Part shown: piece after piece, positions 32,203-62,187 of the stretch
Numbering within the stretch: the stretch's first letter is position 1
Layout: the number at the start of each line of letters is the position of its first letter
Origin: Chryseobacterium gleum
Lineage (GTDB): Bacteria > Bacteroidota > Bacteroidia > Flavobacteriales_D > Crocinitomicaceae
DNA: 64,000 bases
Reading direction: 5' to 3'
NCBI GenBank assembly: GCA_945888625.1
Contig: CAMDAH010000002.1
Coordinates: forward strand, 62,001 to 126,000
Program-made: the position numbers and the translations under genes
The notes under the pieces: model-generated
What the model saw: the letters and a program-made list of their open reading frames with translations, nothing else
Told to the model about the DNA's origin: nothing
Databases searched by the model: none

Positions 32203-32535
32203 TTAATACATCAGTGCCTTTTTTGAATTTGTTCTCCATTGCGCGTCGTATTTACTATCGGAAAAATAAATAATCAAATCCGCATCGTATTTACTGGAAC
32301 AAAAAAAGATTTTCTTTTTTGCATCGTACTTACTAGATGCAAAAAACCACAAGCCTTTGTTATCTGTTGCATCGTATTTTGAGGAACATTTGAAAACGAT
32401 TAGATCGGCATCGTATTTCGAGGAGGCAACAAATACTTTTACATCGGCATCGTATTTGGAGTCAACTGCGTAAACAACTTGTCCAAAGGCATTCATTGAA
32501 CAAAAAAGTAAAATGGTAATAAAAAGAGTTTTCAT
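32203..32535 (-). CDS. Secreted SKYDA-repeat protein (DUF6150-like)
   Basis: A 110-residue protein with a signal peptide (ending AFGQ, residue 19). Almost the entire mature part consists of six copies of SKYDA, each followed by a hydrophobic beta-strand (VKVFVA, LIVFKC, GLWFFA, KIFFC, LIIYFS). Spacing is 13 residues except one 16-residue unit. This matches the DUF6150 family as I recall it, whose function is unknown. A small all-beta extracytoplasmic fold is likely. It is converged on by pdhB, 28 bp away. Confidence 0.82.
   Translation of the reverse strand: MKTLFITILLFCSMNAFGQVVYAVDSKYDADVKVFVASSKYDADLIVFKCSSKYDATDNKGLWFFASSKYDAKKKIFFCSSKYDADLIIYFSDSKYDAQWRTNSKKALMY
32243..32460 (-). repeat. 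Six in-frame repeats with 39-nt period encoding SKYDA
   Basis: The plus-strand core GCATCGTA (first copy GCGTCGTA) starts at 32243, 32282, 32321, 32369, 32408 and 32447, so the spacing is 39, 39, 48, 39, 39. The repeat is protein-coding; bases between cores have diverged. Confidence 0.85.
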
Positions 32536-35730: not shown

Positions 35731-36630
35731 CTATACTACTTTGATTGTATCTGCGCTAAATAATTGTTGATCAAAATCAAGATCAATTCGCCCAAGATTT
35801 ATTCCTCCCCATCCTGTTTGGTTGATAAGAATGGGGTCTCCATCTAAGTTTTTTTCTAATAAAGGTCGCTCCAGGAAGGTGTGCGTGTGGCCACCAAGAA
35901 TCAGGTGTATATTTCTTGTTTTTTTTGCCATTAAGCGATCAGATGGTTTATCGTCTTTGTATTCATACCCCAAGTGAGAAAGGCAAATAATTAAATCGCA
36001 ACCCTTCGCTTTTAATTCCGCTGCTTGTTCATTGGCAGTTTCAAAAGGATCTTTGTAAATCATTTTTCCATAATTTGCATCGGGTACGAGGCTGGATAAA
36101 TTTACGCCAATTCCAAATACGCCAATTTTTATTCCGCCTTTGTAGAAAACGGTATTTTTTTTCGTTTTTCCATTCAAAATGGTATCGGTAAAATCATAAT
36201 TGGAGCACAAAAATGGAAAGTTGGCGTGTTCTTGAGCGCTCAAAAAACCTTCTAATCCAATGTCAAAGTCATGGTTGCCCATTGTTGCAGCATCGTAGCC
36301 CATGGCCGTCATGAGCTTCATTTCTAAATGTCCTTTGAAGGTATTGAAATAAGGTGTGCCTTGAAAAATATCACCGGCATCAAATAACAAAACGTGTTGT
36401 TCTTCACTTCTTATTTTTTTGATTATGGAATGTCTTTTAGCAACACCCCCCATGCCTGGGTATTTAGGGTGGTTGTCAGGAAAGGGATCAATGTTGGAAT
36501 GGGTGTCATTGGTATGCAAAATGGTAATTCGCTTACTTTTTTTTACCAAGGTTTGTCCAAATCCTTGTTGAACAACTGCCATTGCTGTTATGCCTAGTCC
36601 AGCTTTTTTTAAAAATCCCCGTCTTTCCAT
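35731..36630 (-). CDS. Metallophosphatase/5'-nucleotidase catalytic domain, Tat-exported
   Basis: A 299-residue calcineurin-like phosphoesterase of the UshA type, expected to dephosphorylate nucleotides outside the cytoplasm. It starts with a twin-arginine signal (RRGFLKKAGLG, residues 3-13). Metal-site motifs in order are HTNDTHSN (about 38), FDAGDIFQG, MGNHDFDIG (about 117), LSHLGYEYKDD and LGGHTHTF. It lacks the C-terminal 5'-nucleotidase domain, which the overlapping upstream gene (TAATG) encodes separately. It is last in a four-gene operon with nuclease and receptor genes. Confidence 0.92.
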   Translation of the reverse strand: MERRGFLKKAGLGITAMAVVQQGFGQTLVKKSKRITILHTNDTHSNIDPFPDNHPKYPGMGGVAKRHSIIKKIRSEEQHVLLFDAGDIFQGTPYFNTFKGHLEMKLMTAMGYDAATMGNHDFDIGLEGFLSAQEHANFPFLCSNYDFTDTILNGKTKKNTVFYKGGIKIGVFGIGVNLSSLVPDANYGKMIYKDPFETANEQAAELKAKGCDLIICLSHLGYEYKDDKPSDRLMAKKTRNIHLILGGHTHTFLERPLLEKNLDGDPILINQTGWGGINLGRIDLDFDQQLFSADTIKVV

Positions 36631-37328
36631 TACCGAATTCTTTTATCTGTTGTTTCAATTAAATCTCCTTGGAACATTGCTTCTTCAATCAGAGCGTCTC
36701 TTAGTGTTTTGGTGTATTTCGTGTAGTTGGTCCCTTTTTTAAAAAAGAGCATGTTGTCGCCTCCATTTGCTAAGTAATCTGAGGTGATAATCCATACATG
36801 TGTATGGTTTTGGTTTAGTCCGTTAACGTGTAGTTGGCCATTCTCCAAGTAGGCATTGGATAAGGGTTCTCCGCCTGTTTTTAGTAGAAGGGTAGCGATT
36901 TCAGGTAATACCTCAACAGGAACTTCAACCCATGTAATTAAATTGTCAAATGGCATTAGTTTGAACATGTCTCCCATCAATATTTCCCCTTTATTTAAGG
37001 TAGAACGAATACCACCAAAATTTAACAGACAAAATACGGGTTGGGTTAAGCGAATTGTTTTTGTTTGATTGACAAACAAGGCATCTGCTACCCAGTTCAT
37101 TAAATTCGAGGAGGGGCGCTCCATAATAAAGTTTACAGGTGAGTTTCCGACATGAATGTTCATCATTTTTGACATTGAATCTCTGTATGGCTTGATTACT
37201 TGTTCGGTTTCTGAAATACTCATACCATCTTTGGAGACTGGTACGAGTGTGGTTTGGTGCAGGACTAAATGCGAAGAGCAAGCCACAAGGCTTGCTCCTA
37301 AACATAAAATCCAAATTAGCTTATTCAT
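36630..37328 (-). CDS. 5'-nucleotidase C-terminal domain lipoprotein
   Basis: A 232-residue lipoprotein (lipobox LVAC, Cys17). The mature part matches the 5_nucleotid_C domain: SPVNFIMERPSSNLMNWVADAL (near 60-80), FGGIRSTLNKGEILMGDMFKLMPFDN and TSDYLANGGDNMLFF, the substrate-base-stacking and hinge region of UshA-like enzymes. It starts 1 bp within the nuclease stop and ends 1 bp within the next ATG, so the three are translated together. It is likely the partner of the Tat-exported catalytic protein. Confidence 0.9.
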   Translation of the reverse strand: MNKLIWILCLGASLVACSSHLVLHQTTLVPVSKDGMSISETEQVIKPYRDSMSKMMNIHVGNSPVNFIMERPSSNLMNWVADALFVNQTKTIRLTQPVFCLLNFGGIRSTLNKGEILMGDMFKLMPFDNLITWVEVPVEVLPEIATLLLKTGGEPLSNAYLENGQLHVNGLNQNHTHVWIITSDYLANGGDNMLFFKKGTNYTKYTKTLRDALIEEAMFQGDLIETTDKRIR

Positions 37329-39598
37329 TATTCAATGATAAAAGAACGGTTGGTTTTTCCAAGTTCTGTACTTACTTCAATTATATACTTTCCGGCTTTT
37401 AGTTGGTTGCCATCTAGTTCTAAAACAGCCGCGTTAAGCATGTTATTTTGTAGTATAGTTTTTCCAAGTATATCCGTTACAACATACCCAGTAATGTTCA
37501 AACCATTTACTTGTGCGAATACTTTACCATTAGATGGAACAGGGAATACGCTAAAGTTCATAGCTAATTGCTCTTCTAATCCCACATTACAATCAACAGC
37601 TAAATAAGTCATGTTTGAAAAATTGACGTGACAAGCATAATTAACTGAATCGATGAATGGATTTCTATTTCCTTGCGTACTAAAAATATATTCTTGTCTA
37701 GCTATTTCATAATTGTCCGGTAAATCTGCAAAATGCCAATTTTTCAATGATGTTTGATCTTGGTATTGAGGCAGTGACCAATTATTTCCACTGATACCAT
37801 TATAGCAAGTGGCCATGTAAAATATTGCACGAGCTGCATTTCCTTTTTGCGACGCTCTTGGTTCGTAGACCATTTGCGCTCCATTGTAACCAACACTTCC
37901 TTCTAAATAGGTGAATACAACATTACCTGTAATGTCCATTAAAGGCAGATTACTTCGAGGGGTGTTTGCATTCTGTAAATTCGTTGGATATAAATTATGT
38001 TGATCGCTGTATTCCATTAATTCAGGATTATCAGCTGGAAATGTTGGCATCCAAGAATGGCAATAGCTATGTTCTCGAGAGTAACCTTGTGTTGTCCAAT
38101 CAAAAGGATCATTAAATACTTTTCTTTCGCCTGAATAAGCACAAATCACAAACGATTGACCATTTGTGGTGTCCCTCACCTCAAATTGATTCATAACCGT
38201 TTGTTTGTAATTGAAGTAACTGATAACAGTGTGCGGATTGATAAGGTTAGATAAGCTCGACAAAAAGGTGGGTGAAGATGAATTCATTGCTGCATAATAA
38301 TTCCCGATTGCAAGTCCTGTACTACTGGTATTTCCAATTGCAGGACCAGTTGTTTTGTAATTCTCAAATCCAGCCGGACCATTAAAGGCAAAAACAGCAA
38401 AATGATAGGATTGATTTGCAATAATTCCTCTAGGTGTAAAGGATGTTCCCGGACCTATGTATGCCACTTTAGCATCACCAATGACATCGCCTCTCAAATA
38501 AGAGCTTCCATCTGTTGGAACGGCAGTAATAGCTCCGCCATTTTTCCAAAGAACGATGTACTTTTCTGCATTTACTCCGTCATTGTATGCTCCAGCAAGC
38601 GTGTATGCTTGTACATTTGAAAATGTTAAGCTGCTTGGATTACTAGTTGGTTCAGTAGCTAAATTGTCATTTCCAACAGCAATGAAATTAATCAGGTATG
38701 GATTTTCGTCAATGTCTGAATTACTAATAGAAATAGAGGCATACCTTGAACCAGGTCCTGCTGGGTTAAAATTCAGTGTGTAGTTTTGGTTAGCTCCACC
38801 CGGAATAGTTGCTGTATTTAGGTTGGTTGTATAATCGGCAGCATTAACTCCAGAAAGGGTTGCTGCTGTTACGCTAAGGTTTTGAACGCCTGTATTTTCT
38901 ATTGTAATGGAATTAATTGCGGTATTTCCAATGATGTATGAACCATTGTTTAGTACTGTTGCCCCATTAATTTTTACATTAATTTCATTTAATGGCGCTA
39001 CATAAGCTACGATATCGTTCGTGCTTCTTGGAACAATTTGATAATTTGCATTAAATTGACCAAGCACCCCTGTTATGGTAACTGGACCAGCTAGGATTGC
39101 GCTACCATCAATATTTGTTGTCCCGTTTATGCGAACATCTAATGTATTCGTTCCATCTGAAATTTGAACAGTACTGTTTCCTGCTGCGAATGTACCACTT
39201 TGTACAAACGTCACGTTTTCAATTGTCACAAGTTGAGCCTCTAAAGGTTCTCCCGCACTTGTAATTGGTATATTAAGAGGGATATTATTGGTAGTTGGGC
39301 CGTGGTTGGTAAATGAACTTGTTGGGGAAATTTCTAATAGCCCGTTGAAGTCAAATAATACACCTGTAGCTGTGATAGAATCACCTTTTAATATGCTGCT
39401 AAGGTTATTTCCATAACAGGGAATTGCTGCGGTTCCGTCTTGTATGTAGCGAATAGCACCTAGTTCAGCACCATTAGAAGATACACCAGTGACTGTGACT
39501 GTTTGGCCAATACCGGCGTTTCGAGCGGTGGCAATGTTTTGTGCAAACAACGCAGTTGAAGATGCGATAATTGATAAACTTAGAATGATTTTTTTCAT
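37328..39598 (-). CDS. T9SS-exported endonuclease I family protein
   Basis: A 756-residue secreted nuclease: signal peptide (ends LFAQ, about 20); an OB-like region (TARNAGIGQTVTVTGV, about 25-205); a choice-of-anchor D-like region (VLNNGSYIIGNTAINSITIE, about 215-305); then the endonuclease I domain (about 430-660), with REHSYCHSW near 500-510 and GNAARAIFYMATCY. The C-terminal ~80 residues (FSVFPVPSNGKVFAQV ... KAGKYIIEVSTELG) form a T9SS type A sorting domain. Endonuclease I family enzymes cut DNA and some cut RNA. The gene lies 17 bp behind the TonB receptor. Confidence 0.92.
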   Translation of the reverse strand: MKKIILSLSIIASSTALFAQNIATARNAGIGQTVTVTGVSSNGAELGAIRYIQDGTAAIPCYGNNLSSILKGDSITATGVLFDFNGLLEISPTSSFTNHGPTTNNIPLNIPITSAGEPLEAQLVTIENVTFVQSGTFAAGNSTVQISDGTNTLDVRINGTTNIDGSAILAGPVTITGVLGQFNANYQIVPRSTNDIVAYVAPLNEINVKINGATVLNNGSYIIGNTAINSITIENTGVQNLSVTAATLSGVNAADYTTNLNTATIPGGANQNYTLNFNPAGPGSRYASISISNSDIDENPYLINFIAVGNDNLATEPTSNPSSLTFSNVQAYTLAGAYNDGVNAEKYIVLWKNGGAITAVPTDGSSYLRGDVIGDAKVAYIGPGTSFTPRGIIANQSYHFAVFAFNGPAGFENYKTTGPAIGNTSSTGLAIGNYYAAMNSSSPTFLSSLSNLINPHTVISYFNYKQTVMNQFEVRDTTNGQSFVICAYSGERKVFNDPFDWTTQGYSREHSYCHSWMPTFPADNPELMEYSDQHNLYPTNLQNANTPRSNLPLMDITGNVVFTYLEGSVGYNGAQMVYEPRASQKGNAARAIFYMATCYNGISGNNWSLPQYQDQTSLKNWHFADLPDNYEIARQEYIFSTQGNRNPFIDSVNYACHVNFSNMTYLAVDCNVGLEEQLAMNFSVFPVPSNGKVFAQVNGLNITGYVVTDILGKTILQNNMLNAAVLELDGNQLKAGKYIIEVSTELGKTNRSFIIE

Positions 39599-39615
39599 TT
39601 AATTGAGTTTAATTC

Positions 39616-42360
39616 TTAAAATTGAAGACCAATAGCGACATTAAAGCGAAAACCTCCACCAAACATAACGGTAGCTGATTGTGCATCAAAGGTATTATAA
39701 ACATCGTTTGCATTGTTCGTGGCATCGGAAATATATTGTGTATTTAATAAATTGGTGATGGAACCACTAGCAATTAGGGTGGTTGTTTTAAGTGGGAATT
39801 TATAACCAGCAAATAGATTTAATAGAAAATAAGAAGGCATTACCCAAGATTCTCTTCCGGCGTTATCGCCTTGTAACGAAAAAGGATCAAAATTGGAATA
39901 GTATCGATCAAAATACTGTGATTGTACTTTAACATAAAAATTATTAAAGGGTTCATATCGAATAGAAGCGGATAAAGCTGTTTGTGCGGCATCACCTACG
40001 TGAACTCCTTTGGCATCAAAGGTTATTTCCAGTGAATCATACTGCGGGATAAGAACGGTCTTGTCTGAATTCCAATACCAGTTGCCATATGACACCATGA
40101 ATTCGGCACTTAACTTTTTAGTGATGTTGAATGCGATATCAAGTTCGCCTCCAAGGTGAATGGCATCCATTCCGTTTATGTTCACGCGAATAGATTCTGT
40201 TGGGTCATTAGGATCTGGTACGGAAACGCCATATGGGAATGGTTTGTTTTTCCAATTTGTTGCATAGCCATTTAAATTAATGCCAAATTTATTGTCGGCA
40301 TATTTCATTCCTCCTTCAAGTGCCAAAATGAGTTCGTTGGTGAAGGTGCCAAAGAATGCATTGGTGTTGTTATCGATTACATTTGAAAATTGAGGTGTTC
40401 GATTTAAATATCCTAAGTTGACGTAGGTACTTGAATATTCATCTCCGGAATAAGCCACACCACCTTTTAGTGTATAGCCAGGCAAGAATTTCCAATCTGT
40501 TTGGTCATTTTCCAACCCTTCGGATGCCGAGGTATAGGTTTGACCTTGATATTGAATCGTATCTCCTGTGCCAATTCGAAAGGTAGTATCTCCTATTTCC
40601 AATACTTTTTTCTGGAAATAATCAATGCCTTTATATCCGTTTAAGATACTAGTAACATTCACAAAAAACGATAGTTTGTCTCCTGTGTAAGACATTTGTC
40701 CGAATGCGCCCGTCCATTGAACTAATCCACTTCGGTCTGCATTAAAAGTATTTTTAGCGATTTTATCGCCCACTCTTTTCATAGGAGTCGCAGCGTTTTT
40801 ATCAGTATTATCTAAGTAATAATCACCGCCTAATAAATCTGAAACCACTTGATAATGCCTTCCTTCATAGTAACGCAAATCGATTCCGCCTGACAACTCT
40901 ACCTTCTTTGACAAATCATAATTAAATTGTCCTAAATACCCCGCCCAAAAATGATTATTTATACTTGCGATGATTAGCTGACTTGATTTTATTTCAGTAG
41001 GGGAGTATAGAGGATCTATATTTGGGGTGCCAAATAAGGAGTTGAATTTATTTTCTTTTTCCATCAGATCCCAATTTATCAAATTATTGGAATCCCTAAG
41101 CACTGCAGAAGAATTATAAATACTTGTTCCTCCGCCGCGTCCTATTGAAAAATAGGCCATGTTAGAAACGGATAATTTATCATTTACTTTCCAAAAGTCC
41201 TTTAAGGTTAGTTGTGGCTTAGTATAAAAATTTTCGCGTTCAGACAGTATCTCTCTTTTTCCGTTTTCCGTTCGATATCCCCAATGTTGGTTATATCGAA
41301 TTCCCATATCAAATAATTGAATATTTGTATCAATGCTTGTTCCTAAATTTCTTGCGGCATCTTTATCCCAATATTGAATTGCTTGGGTGTAGGAACGTTG
41401 ACCGTGTTTTTGGGGGGCAGCAAATCCTGAAAGGGTTATTAAATGAGAGTTTATCTTTTTTGATATTTTTGCGTAGCCAAATAATCCTTGACTATATGTT
41501 CCATCTACCCAACCATCAGCTTGTTTGTAGGAAGCTGAAACCGTTACACCCCAGCCTTTTGGTGTCATCCCTGTATTGTATGAAAAACTGGATCTAAGCA
41601 AGTTTCCTGTTCCATATTCTTGTTTAAAACTTCCTCCTTTTTTATTTCCGATTCCTTGTGTAATGATATTAATCGTTCCACCGATTGAAGGCATGGCAAT
41701 TTTGGTTGCTCCTAAACCTCTTTGAACTTGCATTTGTGCTGTTATCGCATCGAGACCAAACCAATTTGACCAATATACAGCGCCATTTTCCATGTCATTT
41801 ACTGGAACTCCATCGATCATAACGCCCACATTTCGTTGATCAAAACCACGTACATTAATTCGTGCGTCGCCGTCTCCACCACCTGTTTGAGTAGCATACA
41901 CGCCGGGGGTTCCATTGAGTAACATGGGTAGATCACGCGAGCCTAATTCTTCTGCAATTTTTTGGAGGGATATTTTGGTAACGGCCACAGGCACATTTCC
42001 TTCATTGACTAAATTTCCGATGACTTTAACTTCCTCAAATTCTTGGTTCCCTCCAAGAAGGATCGTTAATGTATTCTCCGTTTTTGAGATTTTTATGGGT
42101 TGTGCGATAGGTTCAAAGCCAATCATACTGGCATTGGCCTGGTAAGCCCCGAAACTTAAATTGCTAATTTTACATGTTCCATCTGATAATGTAATGGCTT
42201 TGAAAATAGCATTGGGATCTGTTTCACTCGTTAAAATTACCTTAGCCCCAACAACGATTTCTCTATTTACGTCTACAACTTTGATGCTTAACGAACCTTT
42301 ATTCTGTCCTACGACAAAAAAAGATAACACGCAGGAAAAAATAAGTAGGTATGTCTTCAT
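39616..42360 (-). CDS. TonB-dependent receptor of the nuclease operon
   Basis: A 914-residue outer-membrane receptor. Signal peptide (ends FVVGQ, about 19), a CarboxypepD_reg-like domain (about 24-105), a plug domain (ELGSRDLPMLLNGTPGVY, DARINVRGFDQRNVGVMIDGVPVND, about 135-195) and a C-terminal beta-barrel ending GFRFNVAIGLQF. There is no SusD partner. It would import a ligand using TonB energy. By context the ligand may be a nuclease product or a phosphorus or metal source; this is inference. First gene of an operon of four. Confidence 0.93.
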   Translation of the reverse strand: MKTYLLIFSCVLSFFVVGQNKGSLSIKVVDVNREIVVGAKVILTSETDPNAIFKAITLSDGTCKISNLSFGAYQANASMIGFEPIAQPIKISKTENTLTILLGGNQEFEEVKVIGNLVNEGNVPVAVTKISLQKIAEELGSRDLPMLLNGTPGVYATQTGGGDGDARINVRGFDQRNVGVMIDGVPVNDMENGAVYWSNWFGLDAITAQMQVQRGLGATKIAMPSIGGTINIITQGIGNKKGGSFKQEYGTGNLLRSSFSYNTGMTPKGWGVTVSASYKQADGWVDGTYSQGLFGYAKISKKINSHLITLSGFAAPQKHGQRSYTQAIQYWDKDAARNLGTSIDTNIQLFDMGIRYNQHWGYRTENGKREILSERENFYTKPQLTLKDFWKVNDKLSVSNMAYFSIGRGGGTSIYNSSAVLRDSNNLINWDLMEKENKFNSLFGTPNIDPLYSPTEIKSSQLIIASINNHFWAGYLGQFNYDLSKKVELSGGIDLRYYEGRHYQVVSDLLGGDYYLDNTDKNAATPMKRVGDKIAKNTFNADRSGLVQWTGAFGQMSYTGDKLSFFVNVTSILNGYKGIDYFQKKVLEIGDTTFRIGTGDTIQYQGQTYTSASEGLENDQTDWKFLPGYTLKGGVAYSGDEYSSTYVNLGYLNRTPQFSNVIDNNTNAFFGTFTNELILALEGGMKYADNKFGINLNGYATNWKNKPFPYGVSVPDPNDPTESIRVNINGMDAIHLGGELDIAFNITKKLSAEFMVSYGNWYWNSDKTVLIPQYDSLEITFDAKGVHVGDAAQTALSASIRYEPFNNFYVKVQSQYFDRYYSNFDPFSLQGDNAGRESWVMPSYFLLNLFAGYKFPLKTTTLIASGSITNLLNTQYISDATNNANDVYNTFDAQSATVMFGGGFRFNVAIGLQF

Positions 42361-42377
42361 TGGAAGAATAAAATAAT

Positions 42378-42400
42378 AAAAGCCGTTTTAAACGGCTTTT
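42378..42400 (-). terminator. Terminator of the lamin-tail protein gene (symmetrical hairpin)
   Basis: A perfect palindrome AAAAGCCGTTT/AAACGGCTTTT with a 1-nt centre, between the lamin-tail gene and the receptor gene. It ends in Ts on both strands; the minus reading fits the upstream gene. Read-through into the receptor operon is possible. Confidence 0.7.
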
Positions 42401-42415
42401 ATATATTGTGAGAAA

Positions 42416-43474
42416 TTATCTTACAATTACTTTTTTAATTTCTTGCGATCCATTTTTCATGGTAATTCTCAAGAAATAAACTCCTTTATGACCATCTATA
42501 TCAATCGTCAAATTGGCTTTGTTGTCGTAAGTGTTATATGTCATTTGCTGACCGAAAGCATTTACTAACTGAACCGATTTAATGTTTTGAGCGTTTTTAA
42601 AATATACGATACCAGATGTTGGATTTGGAAACATAATTAAATCCGGAACGCTTGTTTCATTGATAGCTGCAGGATTACAATTACAGGCGTGACTCCCTAA
42701 TGAGTTCCAATTTCCATCTAAAATGGGGTTACCGTTAGTTCCATAAATAGTATCTCCGTTAGCATCTAATCTCACAATTACTGCTGGAATGGAATCCCAT
42801 TCTAATAAAGGGTCAAAATGCGAAACCGGCGTATTTACACCTTTTTCAATAGTTATTTTTCTTATCATTGAATGATCTTTCGTAACCAACTCCCCTAATC
42901 CTGTGCTGTATGGAAATTGCGAAGACCAAGCACCATCATTTCCTGCAGCGCTTCCTGAGGAGTTTGCTGGGTTCTGACCGATTTTACCAAAAATATCTAC
43001 AATCACAAAACCAGGGACATTTGTAGGATTTATTAATGCGGTAGCGGATGCAGGTAGAGTTCCTTTTGCCAACATAACAGCATCATTACCATTCCAATAG
43101 AAAGCATTGGAGGTATTGTAAACAGGGCTATAAAAGCCATCTGCTCTTGCTTGTAAGGAGTCCCAAATTGGTGCCTCTTGCCCGGTTCCCATAGGGTCTA
43201 GTTTTTCTAAAACAGCGACATACACGTCATGTGCGCCAACCATTCCGGTTAATTGAACGGAGTTAGCTACTGTGGCAGTCGAAGACCCATTCGAGTAACG
43301 AGTTACAAAATATTGACTCAAGTCGATTGGGGCTGAAGTAGGATTGTAGATTTCAAGAGCTTTGTTGTTTGACCAGCCTTCCACGTATTCTGAAATAAAT
43401 AATTGGCTACAATTAGTTTGTGCAACTACTGCATTAATAGCAAAGAAAAAAAGTAGGGTAGAGGTTATTTTCAT
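42416..43474 (-). CDS. Lamin-tail-domain T9SS protein
   Basis: A 352-residue secreted protein: signal peptide (ends VVAQ, about 19), a lamin tail domain (CSQLFISEYVEGWSNNKALE..., YNPTSAPIDLSQYFVTRYSNG, about 21-150) and a C-terminal T9SS type A sorting domain (IMFPNPTSGIVYFKN ... KGVYFLRITMKNGS, about 275-352). Lamin-tail domains frequently occur in secreted bacterial nucleases and phosphatases. I see no catalytic motif between the domains. It precedes the nuclease operon on the same strand and is separated from it by a hairpin. Confidence 0.88.
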   Translation of the reverse strand: MKITSTLLFFFAINAVVAQTNCSQLFISEYVEGWSNNKALEIYNPTSAPIDLSQYFVTRYSNGSSTATVANSVQLTGMVGAHDVYVAVLEKLDPMGTGQEAPIWDSLQARADGFYSPVYNTSNAFYWNGNDAVMLAKGTLPASATALINPTNVPGFVIVDIFGKIGQNPANSSGSAAGNDGAWSSQFPYSTGLGELVTKDHSMIRKITIEKGVNTPVSHFDPLLEWDSIPAVIVRLDANGDTIYGTNGNPILDGNWNSLGSHACNCNPAAINETSVPDLIMFPNPTSGIVYFKNAQNIKSVQLVNAFGQQMTYNTYDNKANLTIDIDGHKGVYFLRITMKNGSQEIKKVIVR

Positions 43475-43585
43475 GGTTAAAAATTTTATTTTACAAAAGT
43501 AATTTAAAATTTAGTTAATAACACACCACATTGGTTGTTTAAGATTAAATTTTTTAGCCCTATATATTAATTAAAGTTTAACAAG

Positions 43586-43613: not shown

Positions 43614-45770
43614 ATGAAAATTATTTTTTGCGCATTCTTTTTAGTGAGTTTACAGCTGTATGCTCAAGATATTACAGTCGAAAAAATATGGAAAAATTAT
43701 GAGTTTTATCCAAAAAGTGTAGGTGGGTTTAAGTCCATGAAGGATGGCGAGCACTACACAAAGACAAATGAAGATGGTTCTATTTTTAAGTACAAATTGT
43801 CGGATGCGAACGATCAAGGTACCCTTATTGTCGCCTATGAATCATTAGTTTACAAGGATTCATTAATTTCTTTCGATGACTACGAGTTTAACAGCGACGA
43901 AACTAAGATATTATTAATGACGCAAATTAAGCCTGTGTACCGCAGAAGTTTTACGGCGATTTATTACCTCTATGATTTGGGCACTAAAAAATTATCACCA
44001 CTCGACGAAAAACATTCGCCTCAGTCCTTGGCAGCGTATTCACCCGATGGAAAATCAGTTTCTTTTATTTTTGGGAATGACATTTTTGTAAAGCAAGTTG
44101 CGAATGGGAAAGTCGTAAAAATGACAGAAGATGGAAAAAGAAATAAAATCATTAACGGATCAACCGATTGGGTTTATGAGGAAGAATTTAGCATTACCAA
44201 AGGATATGATTGGTCGCCGGATTCCAAATGGATTGCTTTCTTACGGTTTGATGAGAAGTCAGTAAAGGAATTTAATTTGACTTACTACAATGACCTATAT
44301 CCCGAATTATACAAATACAAATACCCCAAAGCAGGTGAGGACAACAGCAAAGTAACAGCAAATTTATTGAATGTCTCAAATGGAACTGTGACACCCATTA
44401 ACCTTGGGGAATACGAGTATATTCCACGACTATCTTGGTCAAAAACGGCAAACAAACTTATCCTTCAGACCCTTAATCGGCATCAAAACCAATTACAATA
44501 TCATTTAGTTGACATGACTGAAAAAAAAATGAAACACAAAATGTTTTTCGAGGAAAAGTCGACCACTTACGTTGAAATTGACAACAACTTATTGATTCGA
44601 AAAGATGGAAACGCCATTTTAAGAACGAGTGAGGCAGATGGGTTTAATCATATTTATCAACTTGATTTTAATGGTACTAGCACCCAGATAACTAAAGGCG
44701 AATGGGATGTAATTGATTTATATGGCGTCGATGAAAACGCTAACACCATTTATTTTTCGGCGGCAGAAGTTTCTCCGATGATTAAAACCGTTAGTGCCAT
44801 TCAGGGCGACGGCACCTCAAAGCGTCTGATTTCTCCAGCAACAGGAACTAATGATGCAGAATTTACACTAGGAATGAAATTTATGGTGCTTTCACACTCT
44901 GAGGCAAACGTACCGCCAACACAAACGCTCAACACAAATGATGGAAGTTTAATCCAAATTTTAGAAGAAAATCAATTGTTAAAGGGTAAGTTAGAGAAGT
45001 TATCGCTTAGTAAAAAAGAATTTATCACTTTTAATGTAAATGGAAATACCTTGAATGCTTGGATTATGAAACCCGCCAACTTTAATTTGGCAAATAAATA
45101 CCCGGTATACATGACGCTGTATGGAGGGCCTGGACACAACGAGGTTGTTGACGCTTGGGACAATACCGATTACATGTATCATCAATTATTGACTCAAAAA
45201 GGATACGTCGTCATTTGTATTGAGCCTCGGGGTACACTTTACAGAGGAGCTGCATTTAAAAAATCAACCTATTTGCAATTAGGAAAATTAGAAACGGAGG
45301 ATTTAATCGCTTCGGCTATGGAAATACAAAAATTTGCATTTGTTGATCCTGCTCGAATCGGAGTAATGGGGTGGAGCTATGGCGGGTTTATGGCAGCATT
45401 AGCAATTACAAAAGGAGCTGATGTATTTAAAATGGCAATAGCCGTTGCGCCGGTTACAAACTGGAGGAATTATGACAATATTTATACCGAACGTTTTATG
45501 CGAACACCAAAAGAAAATCCTGATGGCTATGATGCTAACTCTCCCGTTAATTTTGTGAAATTAATGAAGGGTAAGTTTTTACTTATACATGGATCGGCAG
45601 ATGATAATGTGCACTATCAAAATTCGATGGAATTGGTTAATGCCATGGTAAAAGCTGATAAGCAATTTGATTTGTTTATTTATCCAAATAAAAATCATGG
45701 AATTTATGGTGGAAATACCAGAAACCATTTATTTACTATGATGTTACAGTTTATTGAGGAAAACCTATAA
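43614..45770 (+). CDS. Dipeptidyl-peptidase IV-type S9 family peptidase
   Basis: A 718-residue serine peptidase expected to remove Xaa-Pro dipeptides in the periplasm. A signal peptide (ends LYAQ, about 18) precedes the DPPIV N-terminal beta-propeller (about 100-440) and the alpha/beta-hydrolase domain. The catalytic triad is visible: Ser588 in GWSYGGF, Asp663 in HGSADDN and His695 in NKNHGI. The EE pair typical of DPP-IV appears as VYEEEFS near residue 190. It stands alone between divergent and unrelated genes. Confidence 0.94.
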   Translation: MKIIFCAFFLVSLQLYAQDITVEKIWKNYEFYPKSVGGFKSMKDGEHYTKTNEDGSIFKYKLSDANDQGTLIVAYESLVYKDSLISFDDYEFNSDETKILLMTQIKPVYRRSFTAIYYLYDLGTKKLSPLDEKHSPQSLAAYSPDGKSVSFIFGNDIFVKQVANGKVVKMTEDGKRNKIINGSTDWVYEEEFSITKGYDWSPDSKWIAFLRFDEKSVKEFNLTYYNDLYPELYKYKYPKAGEDNSKVTANLLNVSNGTVTPINLGEYEYIPRLSWSKTANKLILQTLNRHQNQLQYHLVDMTEKKMKHKMFFEEKSTTYVEIDNNLLIRKDGNAILRTSEADGFNHIYQLDFNGTSTQITKGEWDVIDLYGVDENANTIYFSAAEVSPMIKTVSAIQGDGTSKRLISPATGTNDAEFTLGMKFMVLSHSEANVPPTQTLNTNDGSLIQILEENQLLKGKLEKLSLSKKEFITFNVNGNTLNAWIMKPANFNLANKYPVYMTLYGGPGHNEVVDAWDNTDYMYHQLLTQKGYVVICIEPRGTLYRGAAFKKSTYLQLGKLETEDLIASAMEIQKFAFVDPARIGVMGWSYGGFMAALAITKGADVFKMAIAVAPVTNWRNYDNIYTERFMRTPKENPDGYDANSPVNFVKLMKGKFLLIHGSADDNVHYQNSMELVNAMVKADKQFDLFIYPNKNHGIYGGNTRNHLFTMMLQFIEENL

Positions 45771-51839: not shown

Positions 51840-53738
51840 TTATTTTTTTCTGGCATTTACGGCCTGATACACTACGTGCTGAATTTTTGTGCGAATTCCC
51901 ATATCCCTTAGTTTCCAGTTTTCAGCGTCTGGATTTACGCGGTTGGAAAGAAAAATGAAGATGATTTCGTCTTTTGGGTCTGCCCAAGCTAATGTACCCG
52001 TAAATCCAGAATGTCCAAAGCTTTTTGCAGAAGCAAGTTCATCACATGTGCCGCCCCCATTGGCATTGGGTCTATCGAATCCAGCGCCTCTTTTATTCCC
52101 CGAAAATTGAGCTCTAGTAAAGTCATCGATGATTTTTTCTGAAAAATAATTCGTTCCAGCGTATTTTCCTTTTTGTAAAAAGAGTTGCATAATACTCGCT
52201 AAATCTGTGGCGTTACTAAACAATCCAGCATGCCCTGCCACGCCGCCTAGCATCGCTGCGCCAGGATCGTGAACGTAACCGTGAATGAGTTGTTTTCGGA
52301 AGGTTTTATCGTTCTCGGTTGGTGTAATCTGGTTTTGGGGGAAATAATCCATCGGTTTGTAACGAAGGTAACGAAGACCCATTGGAAGGTAAATATTAGC
52401 CAGCAAATAATCATTTTGCTTTTTCTGAATAATTTTTTCGTTTATTTTTTGAATAAAATAAAAGCACAAATCAGAATATTCATATTTTTTAGTGCCAAGT
52501 GGTGTATTTATAATTTGTGCATACATGCTATCGACAAAGTCATTTCTCATGAAGATACCATCTGCTACTTTTAAATCGAAGCCCACCTTCTTTTCGCCAG
52601 TAAAAATGGTAGGCAGTAAGGAACCATTTTTTAGCGTGTTGCTATAAAATCGGATGAAAGGTGTCAAGCCTGCTTGATGTGCGAGCATTTCTCGAATATT
52701 AATTTTGGAATATGTACCACTTCCTGTCGTCTCGGGGATATAATCACCTAATGTTTTGTTTATATCAAGTAAACCTTTGTCGACGAGGTGCATAGTGAGT
52801 AAAGTGGAAGCTGCAATTTTCGTTATGGAGGCTATATCATAGAGGTCTTTGTTTTTTACTTTTGCTCCATTTTTTGTTTGCTCACCAAAACTTTTTCTGT
52901 AAATAATAGCGCCTTTTACGGCAACTACAATCTGACATCCCGGATAGGCACCTTTTTCAATTCCATCTAAGGCAATTGCATCGATTTCATTTAATCTGCT
53001 TGCATCAATTCCGAAATCTTCCGGTAACCCAAACTTTAAACGCCCGTTTTTTTGCGTGCTGATACCTTCTCCCAATTTATAACTTCCTATATTCATGCTT
53101 AGGATTCCCTTGGATTCGATTGCTCCAAAAAGTAGTTGTGCGGCGCTTTTTTGCGCTAAATAATGATTTTCTTTCGCCCAAATAATAGCGTCTGCTTTTG
53201 TCGTATCAATCGAGTTGAAGATGTTTTCATCACCGAATAGAATTAAAATTTTAGTCAGTGTGGCCGGTAGTTTGTCAAGTATTTTCAGGTCTTCTTTATT
53301 AATGGAATTTTCATTTCCTTTTTCACCACTGGCGTGTAAGGATATTACACATATTTCAGCACTTTTAATGCGGTTTAAACAGGTGTCAGGGCAATTGGTA
53401 AGTTTAGAATAGTGTGCCGATTTCATATCCGCGAAGAGCCCAATTGTTTCCTGAAAAGTTTGTGGTGAGCCTCCAAGTTGAATCGTTGAAATTTGTCTAT
53501 TTAGATTGTTTAATGGGAGAATTATCGTTTTGTTTTTTAATAACACAATGTTATTTTCAATAGCCAAGGTTTGCGCGGCTAGATCAAGCTTGTTTAACCC
53601 TATAAATTCTTCACTGAACCAAATTTTAGGATCAATCATTGGAGTTTGTAGTGGCTTACTAGTTCTTGTCTTTAGACAAAATGAAACAATAAGTAGAGTG
53701 GCTAGGATAAATGGTATAGAGAAAATGATTTTTTTCAT
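51840..53738 (-). CDS. GH3 C-terminal domain fused to beta-lactamase-type serine hydrolase, GH3 catalytic domain missing
   Basis: A 632-residue lipid-anchored or secreted protein. After a hydrophobic N-terminus (about 5-20), residues 40-215 match the alpha/beta C-domain of GH3 enzymes (IENNIVLLKNKTIILPLNNL, AAQLLFGAIESKGILSMNI). Residues 230-630 are a class C-type serine hydrolase: SITK near 303-306, YEYSD near 430, HSGFTG near 580. Bacteroidota have GH3 (NagZ-like) N-domain/C-domain/beta-lactamase fusions of about 1000 residues. Here the TIM-barrel catalytic domain is absent and no GH3 frame lies upstream. A cell-wall role is likely. Confidence 0.88.
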   Translation of the reverse strand: MKKIIFSIPFILATLLIVSFCLKTRTSKPLQTPMIDPKIWFSEEFIGLNKLDLAAQTLAIENNIVLLKNKTIILPLNNLNRQISTIQLGGSPQTFQETIGLFADMKSAHYSKLTNCPDTCLNRIKSAEICVISLHASGEKGNENSINKEDLKILDKLPATLTKILILFGDENIFNSIDTTKADAIIWAKENHYLAQKSAAQLLFGAIESKGILSMNIGSYKLGEGISTQKNGRLKFGLPEDFGIDASRLNEIDAIALDGIEKGAYPGCQIVVAVKGAIIYRKSFGEQTKNGAKVKNKDLYDIASITKIAASTLLTMHLVDKGLLDINKTLGDYIPETTGSGTYSKINIREMLAHQAGLTPFIRFYSNTLKNGSLLPTIFTGEKKVGFDLKVADGIFMRNDFVDSMYAQIINTPLGTKKYEYSDLCFYFIQKINEKIIQKKQNDYLLANIYLPMGLRYLRYKPMDYFPQNQITPTENDKTFRKQLIHGYVHDPGAAMLGGVAGHAGLFSNATDLASIMQLFLQKGKYAGTNYFSEKIIDDFTRAQFSGNKRGAGFDRPNANGGGTCDELASAKSFGHSGFTGTLAWADPKDEIIFIFLSNRVNPDAENWKLRDMGIRTKIQHVVYQAVNARKK

Positions 53739-61627: not shown

Positions 61628-62187
61628 CAAAACAAAATAACATCCGTGAGGTATTGGCAAAGCATCCTATCATTCCAGTGGTAACCTTTACGAAACTAGA
61701 TGAGATAGATGCAAAATTGGAGGTGCTATTGCGGAACAATGTCAAATGTATCGAAATTACCTTGCGAACTCCAGTTGCTTATGATGCCATTCAAAAAGTT
61801 AAGGAAGATTATGGCGATCAGTTTACTGTGGGAATGGGAACTGTAGTGTTGGAGCAGCAAATTCGTAAAGCGATTGAATTACAGGTTGATTTTATGGTAA
61901 GTCCTGGTTTGCATGGTGGCTTGGCCGAACAATTAATGGCGAGTAAAATTGCATTTATTCCGGGTGTAGCCACGCCTAGCGATATTATTACTGGCTTACA
62001 ATATGAATGGGATACCTTCAAGTTTTTTCCTGCATTTTTGTTTGGTGGAGTAGAGGCCTTGAAAACATACGGACAGGTTTTTCCGCACCTGAAATTTTGT
62101 CCCACCGGTGGACTTACCAAAGAATCGTATCTAGATTACTTAGCCTTGGAAAATGTTATTTCTGTGGGCGGTTCTTGGATAAAATAG
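61624..62187 (+). CDS. eda: KDPG/KHG aldolase
   Basis: A class I aldolase giving pyruvate from 2-keto-3-deoxy-6-phosphogluconate (and 4-hydroxy-2-oxoglutarate). The 187-residue TIM-barrel keeps the catalytic elements: EITLRTP (Glu and Arg), GMGTVV, PGVATPSDII, and the Schiff-base Lys in FKFFPA, followed by CPTGGL. Slightly shorter than the usual ~205. edd and other Entner-Doudoroff genes are not nearby. The 4-bp overlap with bshC implies translational coupling. Confidence 0.93.
   Translation: MTKQNNIREVLAKHPIIPVVTFTKLDEIDAKLEVLLRNNVKCIEITLRTPVAYDAIQKVKEDYGDQFTVGMGTVVLEQQIRKAIELQVDFMVSPGLHGGLAEQLMASKIAFIPGVATPSDIITGLQYEWDTFKFFPAFLFGGVEALKTYGQVFPHLKFCPTGGLTKESYLDYLALENVISVGGSWIK

Follow-up and report, generated by a model that had tools for sequence, protein, structure and literature searches.

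A SusD-Less Five-Gene Locus of a Crocinitomicaceae Genome Predicted to Serve Nucleic-Acid Utilisation

In the seafloor, extracellular DNA is an important source of phosphorus, nitrogen and carbon, and Bacteroidota have been singled out as a group that may rank among its chief degraders (PMC8289736). In open-licence PMC text, so far as it was covered, no description was found of the passage of DNA pieces across the outer membrane in Bacteroidota degraders, nor of a locus combining genes for a lamin-tail-domain protein (LTD), a TonB-dependent receptor (TBDR), an EndA-type endonuclease I (ENDO) and a 5'-nucleotidase. Such a locus lies at positions 35731-43474 of the window analysed here, a stretch of 64,000 nucleotides from Chryseobacterium gleum (positions 62,001 to 126,000 of contig CAMDAH010000002.1, assembly GCA_945888625.1; family Crocinitomicaceae in GTDB). 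The results make it probable that the locus is a SusD-less nucleic-acid utilisation locus, in which nucleic acid would be cut at the cell surface, imported by the receptor and dephosphorylated in the periplasm. It offers a candidate transporter and surface partner, which it links to nucleases of two types and to a split 5'-nucleotidase.

Among the closest described systems, EndA1 and EndA2 of Flavobacterium johnsoniae (Fjoh_4721 and Fjoh_4723) are listed as phosphate-depletion genes, with 4.66 and 4.13 in the first transcriptome column of Table 1, read here as log2 change; they too are Bacteroidota proteins pairing Endonuclease_1 with a lamin-tail domain, and combine LTD, FN3 and nuclease in one chain encoded by genes listed as orphan (PMC8115612). 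In the window, by contrast, the LTD has its own gene and the nuclease gene stands beside those for a receptor and a split nucleotidase. In Shewanella, EndA is needed chiefly for using DNA as a phosphorus source, and ExeM unites an LTD, a stretch that binds oligonucleotides and a nuclease (PMC6085458). Unlike in ExeM, the LTD and the OB-fold nuclease of the window are two proteins of the type IX secretion system (T9SS) type, the nuclease is EndA-like, and a TonB receptor is co-encoded. YhcR of Bacillus subtilis is a single chain that is anchored to the wall and carries a thermonuclease-type domain. It resembles the present locus in joining nuclease and UshA-like 5'-nucleotidase functions with an OB-like region, whereas the window has separate polypeptides and EndA. 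As in SusCD and PusCD loci, an outer-membrane TonB transporter is co-encoded with surface and periplasmic hydrolases (PMC8115612), but the SusD/PusD lipoprotein is lacking; the OB-fold nuclease may take over its surface-binding role.

Gene content of the locus

The locus consists of five intact minus-strand genes, which from 43474 downwards are LTD, TBDR, ENDO, the gene for a 5'-nucleotidase C-domain lipoprotein (NUCC) and that for a twin-arginine (Tat)-type 5'-nucleotidase catalytic half (NUCN). From stop to start, successive genes are spaced by 55, 17, -1 and -1 bp, and the two overlaps (ENDO/NUCC and NUCC/NUCN) read TAATG. Coordinates of the open reading frames (ORFs) together with family matches bear out an earlier note on this DNA, which had placed the genes on one strand with gaps of 17, -1 and -1 bp and LTD first, and which had also stated that SusD is absent. 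No SusD family was matched in the 18 genes scanned, the five of the locus and 13 neighbours, and the SusD-like lipoprotein beside a TonB receptor that marks SusCD-type loci (PUL/PUS) was therefore not found. A polysaccharide locus was rejected, there being neither SusD nor a carbohydrate-active domain among the five genes. The genome assembly (G000; 2.42 Mb, 42 contigs, 98% complete) encodes TatC and the T9SS component SprA.

ENDO (37328-39598, minus strand) encodes a 756-residue secreted endonuclease composed of an OB fold, a DUF5689 region, PapD/ASH-like and FN3-like parts, Endonuclease_1 and a T9SS tail. The N-terminal OB-fold domain comprises residues 16-101 (39296-39553, minus strand) and the DUF5689 match residues 96-196 (39011-39313, minus strand; 50.8 bits, cut-off 28.6); a second OB fold within the DUF5689 region is our conjecture. 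The Endonuclease_1 domain (PF04231), residues 447-651 (37646-38260, minus strand), scored 75.3 bits against a cut-off of 25, retains an intact REH...DxHN...NxxRSN motif and aligns to the solved endonuclease I 1oup. R508, E509, H510 and N545, which we take to be active-site residues, are invariant in 76/76 relatives. The protein thus has both hallmarks of endonuclease I, a domain above the curated cut-off and the EH and N residues of the active site, and the inactive nuclease that the earlier note had named, together with a unique gene order, as fatal to its proposal is not suggested by the sequences. The sorting tail lies just over the TIGR04183 cut-off (23.9 against 23) and just under that of Pfam (25.4 against 27); a C-terminal sorting domain in a genome with a T9SS identifies the protein as T9SS cargo. 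The structural model had a mean predicted local distance difference test (pLDDT) score of 66.8 and values below 50 across most of residues 453-549, so the model was not used to interpret the catalytic domain, and Foldseek alone ranked Ig-like repeat proteins, a result without functional meaning.

TBDR (39616-42360, minus strand) encodes a 914-residue receptor in which Plug was matched at 53.5 bits (cut-off 23.9) and CarboxypepD_reg models were matched below cut-off only; no barrel model was found at E 0.001 in the family search. Family matches and the scan of neighbouring genes place it without a SusD partner. Assignment as a B12 or siderophore receptor was rejected, since the model matches are far below threshold.

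The two remaining genes encode the halves of a split UshA-type enzyme. NUCC (36630-37328, minus strand), recognised by family and structure matches, is the nucleotide-binding half, with a 5_nucleotid_C domain (PF02872) at 47.0 bits (cut-off 23.6) and a lipobox-type cysteine. NUCN (35731-36630, minus strand) is the exported catalytic half, a metallophosphoesterase identified by family and structure matches (Metallophos, 69 bits, cut-off 21.5) that follows a Tat-like RRGFLKK start. Residues H39, D42, H44, D84, N119, H219, H248 and H250 of NUCN, presumably metal ligands, are kept in 68/68 relatives. In NUCC, R108, F127, N129 and D191 are kept in 76/76 relatives and Y185 is Y or F in 76/76, positions to which we assign nucleotide-site roles by analogy with CD73. 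The structures 2z1a and 3ivd match both halves, while 1ush and CD73 match the catalytic half. Both domains of an UshA-type enzyme are therefore present, the dimetal metallophosphoesterase and the C-terminal nucleotide-binding domain; unlike in UshA and CD73 they are divided between two ORFs with the C-domain first, the reverse gene order, and carry a lipobox and a twin-arginine signal, respectively. The pairing suggests a two-chain 5'-nucleotidase, a putative heterodimer.

LTD (42416-43474, minus strand) encodes a 352-residue secreted protein assigned by family matches and alignment, with a lamin-tail domain at 48.4 bits (cut-off 34.3) and a type A T9SS sorting tail (Por_Secre_tail, 38.0 bits). 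No nuclease domain was found in it by family search, and its AlphaFold2 model, with a pLDDT of 50.8, was too poor for fold search. The sequence TACTTTTG at 43494-43501 (minus strand), 19 nt upstream of the start, matches TAnnTTTG, which we take to be the consensus of the Bacteroidota -7 promoter box. In the upstream alignment TA(C/T)TTTTG is retained at about the same place in loci L003, L005, L006, L010, L011 and L012. The 55-bp spacer between LTD and TBDR contains a terminator-like hairpin of 12 pairs followed by a T-rich run (42376-42402, minus strand). It was found in a scan that gave seven such sites in the region against a shuffled mean of 6.3 (sd 3.0), a count that is not elevated, and it has the most pairs of the seven. 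In a set of 42 spacers (43 chosen from loci with both genes, less two with overlapping genes, plus the window), 29, that of the window among them, fold at or below -9.8 kcal/mol and the other 13 stay above this value; the sequences differ. Since the spacer holds a hairpin and folding energies are low in 29 of the 42, the strict operon probably consists of the last four genes. LTD is probably not wholly within their transcript, and is probably expressed separately from them or more than they are. The content and order of the locus as the earlier note drew it therefore stand, with the refinement that a terminator-like hairpin parts LTD from the other four genes.

Conservation and linkage of the genes

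Relatives were collected by an ENDO-alignment scan of genome contigs, in which 101 loci were found and 80 kept; their ORFs were then searched with profiles for the five genes. All five genes occur in order on one strand in 61/80 loci, and 15/80 are cut by contig ends. The nearest locus, L003, is also from Crocinitomicaceae with 96% ENDO identity, and the order persists down to 50% identity in Taishania pollutisoli CZZ-1 (L081), a named isolate. Some genes are divided into two ORFs: ENDO in L012, TBDR in L058 and L074, and, next to a masked stretch, LTD in L080. Among 120 evenly sampled genomes of the family, ENDO scored at least 527 bits, the threshold adopted, in 72, and in 63 of these TBDR and NUCC were adjacent on the same strand; for G068, G107 and G094, among the nine exceptions, the pieces lie on separate contigs. 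An order unique to this genome, which the earlier note had coupled with an inactive nuclease as grounds for giving up its proposal, is excluded by these counts. NUCC was matched in 93/120 genomes, beside ENDO in 69 and elsewhere in 24. Each of the 93 has a single match, and the pair is therefore the only such nucleotidase pair of its genome.

Genes of the locus also form two modules in the class at large, where NUCC was found in 116 and Endonuclease_1 in 117 of 197 genomes. Twenty ENDO loci were picked for long open frames (736-861 residues) from 114 non-family genomes with a match, shorter EndA types being left out. In 16 of them, from 11 other families, LTD, TBDR and ENDO follow in that order; L122, L126, L130 and L131 do not show it. 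In six of the 16 (L117, L118, L119, L121, L123 and L132) TBDR and ENDO are separated by small genes or a gap. A gene of about 140-160 codons occupies this position at L117:7278-7730, L118:11255-11683, L121:7232-7720 and L123:7662-8111. Its product has a sub-threshold lipocalin-like match in L117 and none in L118, and is possibly an accessory protein. Of 20 NUCC loci drawn from 112 genomes of the class outside the family, 19 have NUCN adjoining and the other ends at a contig edge. In 16 (L134-L147, L149 and L150) the pair lies beside dnaA, 13 of these also having genes for a low-molecular-weight phosphatase and an rsmI-like protein.

The nucleotidase pair was found coupled to nuclease and receptor genes in three ways, which we infer to have arisen independently. 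The first is the tandem order of the window. In the second, seen in G244 and G271 (L128 and L129) of one other family, NUCN-NUCC lies divergently, directly upstream of LTD-TBDR-ENDO. In the third, NUCC-NUCN accompanies an EEP nuclease (PF19580) and a second receptor (TBDR2), after which come one or two DUF5689 proteins, some of which also carry DUF5017. This arrangement was present in 14 of the 17 loci (L221-L232, L235 and L236) fetched from the 24 family NUCC loci not beside ENDO, and absent in L233, L234 and L240. In L229 and L230 the EEP gene lies beyond TBDR2, and an extra secreted protein is encoded between EEP and NUCC in L231 and L232. Pfam was run on proteins of L221, L229, L230 and L231, and the other loci were assigned with profiles built from four to five of these and sister sequences. 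The strongest support for cutting, import and dephosphorylation, a support by association, is that the genome's only such nucleotidase pair accompanies exported nuclease and receptor in varied orientation and with two nuclease families.

Proposed function and competing explanations

Building on the observed gene content, intact active-site residues, export routes, conserved order and repeated linkage, the following scheme is proposed. The T9SS-secreted EndA-type nuclease would hold DNA or RNA with its OB fold and cut it at the cell surface, assisted by the secreted LTD protein, a role suggested by ExeM-like proteins that carry LTD, oligonucleotide-binding and nuclease parts in a single chain. 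The receptor would carry oligonucleotides into the periplasm, where trimming to mononucleotides would fall to an enzyme encoded elsewhere. The separately exported halves, nucleotide-binding lipoprotein and Tat-exported catalytic subunit, would then release phosphate and nucleosides, and the purpose would be nutritional, for phosphorus, nitrogen or nucleosides. This route agrees with the one put forward in the earlier note, which the conserved order, the intact nuclease residues and the recurrence of the nucleotidase in three arrangements with two nuclease families support at the level of sequence. The literature counted in its favour comprises PMC8115612, PMC6085458 and PMC8289736.

Several observations weigh against nucleic-acid utilisation. 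The locus genes include none for an exonuclease, a nucleoside transporter or a phosphate regulator, and no locus enzyme converts oligonucleotides into the mononucleotides that a 5'-nucleotidase requires. The receptor's substrate is not readable from its sequence, for which the best NCBIfam matches are B12-receptor models far under cut-off and no solved chain was matched. The hairpin stands between LTD and the remaining four genes. Both NUCC and NUCN are missing from L045, L071 and L074, and NUCN from L032; in the family sample, 5 of the 72 ENDO genes have no nearby TBDR (G068, G057, G045, G107 and G072) and 5 no nearby NUCC (G025, G003, G094, G045 and G078), some at contig ends. Across the class, only 4/197 genomes (G000, G022, G244 and G271; lists compared by eye) have NUCC and Endonuclease_1 no more than about 6 kb apart, so that the joined form is lineage-restricted. 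The F. johnsoniae paper on phosphate (PMC8115612) does not use the word 'nucleotidase' in its main text. Pairwise distances of LTD, TBDR and ENDO track those of gltX (r 0.88-0.91, 23-24 loci) as closely as they track each other, as plain descent predicts; mirror-tree correlations were discarded as support since common descent dominates them.

An unlikely explanation, though the likeliest of three rivals, is that the nuclease remodels biofilm matrix or surface DNA while the receptor imports something else and the nucleotidase is a passenger. Shewanella ExeM strongly affects biofilm formation (PMC6085458), and the hairpin sets LTD apart. A passenger role for the nucleotidase pair is, however, at odds with its 1-bp overlap with ENDO and with its occurrence beside nuclease and receptor in three arrangements and with two nuclease types. 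Likewise the receptor remains near the nuclease in 16/20 of the chosen loci outside the family.

Use of the receptor and the DUF5689 protein for DNA entry across the outer membrane in natural transformation is very unlikely here. The idea draws on Riemerella anatipestifer, in which the adjacent genes RA0C_RS04915 (predicted outer membrane, pfam13620) and RA0C_RS04920 (DUF5689 and DUF5017) are essential for transformation (PMC8459023), and in which mutation of tonBA or tonBB inhibits transformation, which in the case of tonBB the authors attribute to iron (PMC8383284). In the window, too, a TBDR gene adjoins that of a DUF5689 protein, the only one found in the genome; the likeness, an outer-membrane protein beside a DUF5689 protein, was drawn by domain names only. 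The Riemerella pair is, however, required together with ComEC, whereas ComEC had no match in the 98%-complete window genome by a search that was positive in 10/14 control genomes, and the DUF5689 region of the window is fused to an intact nuclease and co-encoded with phosphate-removing enzymes. Since ComEC was not found, transformation is unlikely and nutritional use is retained for the window genome.

That the conserved order merely reflects chromosome order inherited in one family, without functional link, was already disfavoured and is the least credible of the three, for although the gltX correlations, the position of gltX downstream in many related loci and the retention of a divergent dipeptidyl peptidase (DPP) gene in 58/80 of them (some cut at contig ends) fit it, LTD, TBDR and ENDO stay together in L071, L074, L080 and L081, where no DPP gene was found within the fetched stretch (TBDR being two ORFs in L074), the three genes recur in 11 other families in other surroundings, and the nucleotidase pair lies beside dnaA in most of the class loci yet beside nucleases in the window's family.

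The domain set of the third coupling resembles that of the Riemerella pair, and receptors paired with DUF5689/DUF5017 proteins may be a general nucleic-acid entry unit. We tentatively suggest, as an idea somewhat short of an even chance, that a widespread and unnamed class of SusD-less TonB-dependent nucleic-acid importers exists in Bacteroidota, in which a DUF5689 protein with an OB fold at the cell surface would pass DNA or oligonucleotides on to the receptor it partners. For feeding, this unit would be combined with a split UshA and with nucleases of EndA or EEP type, and a like pair would serve DNA entry in Riemerella transformation. The locus accordingly bears on how DNA passes the outer membrane in transformable Flavobacteriaceae.

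Leader RNA of related loci and neighbouring genes

A structured leader RNA precedes LTD, directly after a -7-like box, in 43/80 loci and in L116. It consists of an outer stem, an internal loop (TCCTTGA/GAAACC) and an inner stem, modelled over 55 positions from an alignment of 44 sequences, 43 of them distinct; examples are L018:6054-6106, L061:5882-5938, L081:5944-5998 and L116:4161-4215. Of its 16 pairs 15 change on both sides, and cells with two-sided change number 183 against 63 +/- 7 in shuffles and 28-59 with partners slid. The model was matched in 37/60 family genomes and in 4/197 class genomes, two of the four being in the family. In the window the highest score, 14.7 bits (E 0.84), is not significant. 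Twenty-nine further copies lie elsewhere than at the LTD locus: 22 stand before genes for proteins with a type-B T9SS tail (CHU_C), as judged with a profile built from eight Pfam-confirmed cases, and 21 end 14-24 nt upstream of the start codon. Searches of Rfam gave no gathering-score match in six loci, and when two leader regions were searched permissively no overlapping match was better than E 1.3; in L018 a SAM-II match of 21.5 bits, under the gathering score of 44, lies just upstream of the leader. This unrecognised RNA, whose covariation is strong, is a candidate cis-regulatory RNA of T9SS cargo genes.

The window as a whole gave no Rfam match at gathering score. The DPP gene, a divergent S9 dipeptidyl peptidase identified by family match (43614-45770, plus strand), was excluded from the proposed system. 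Elsewhere in the window, 32203-32535 (minus strand) encodes a DUF6150 protein built of SSKYDA-type repeats (131.8 bits), and 51840-53738 (minus strand) a protein in which a beta-lactamase-family domain comes after part of a glycoside hydrolase 3 C-domain that scores below cut-off.

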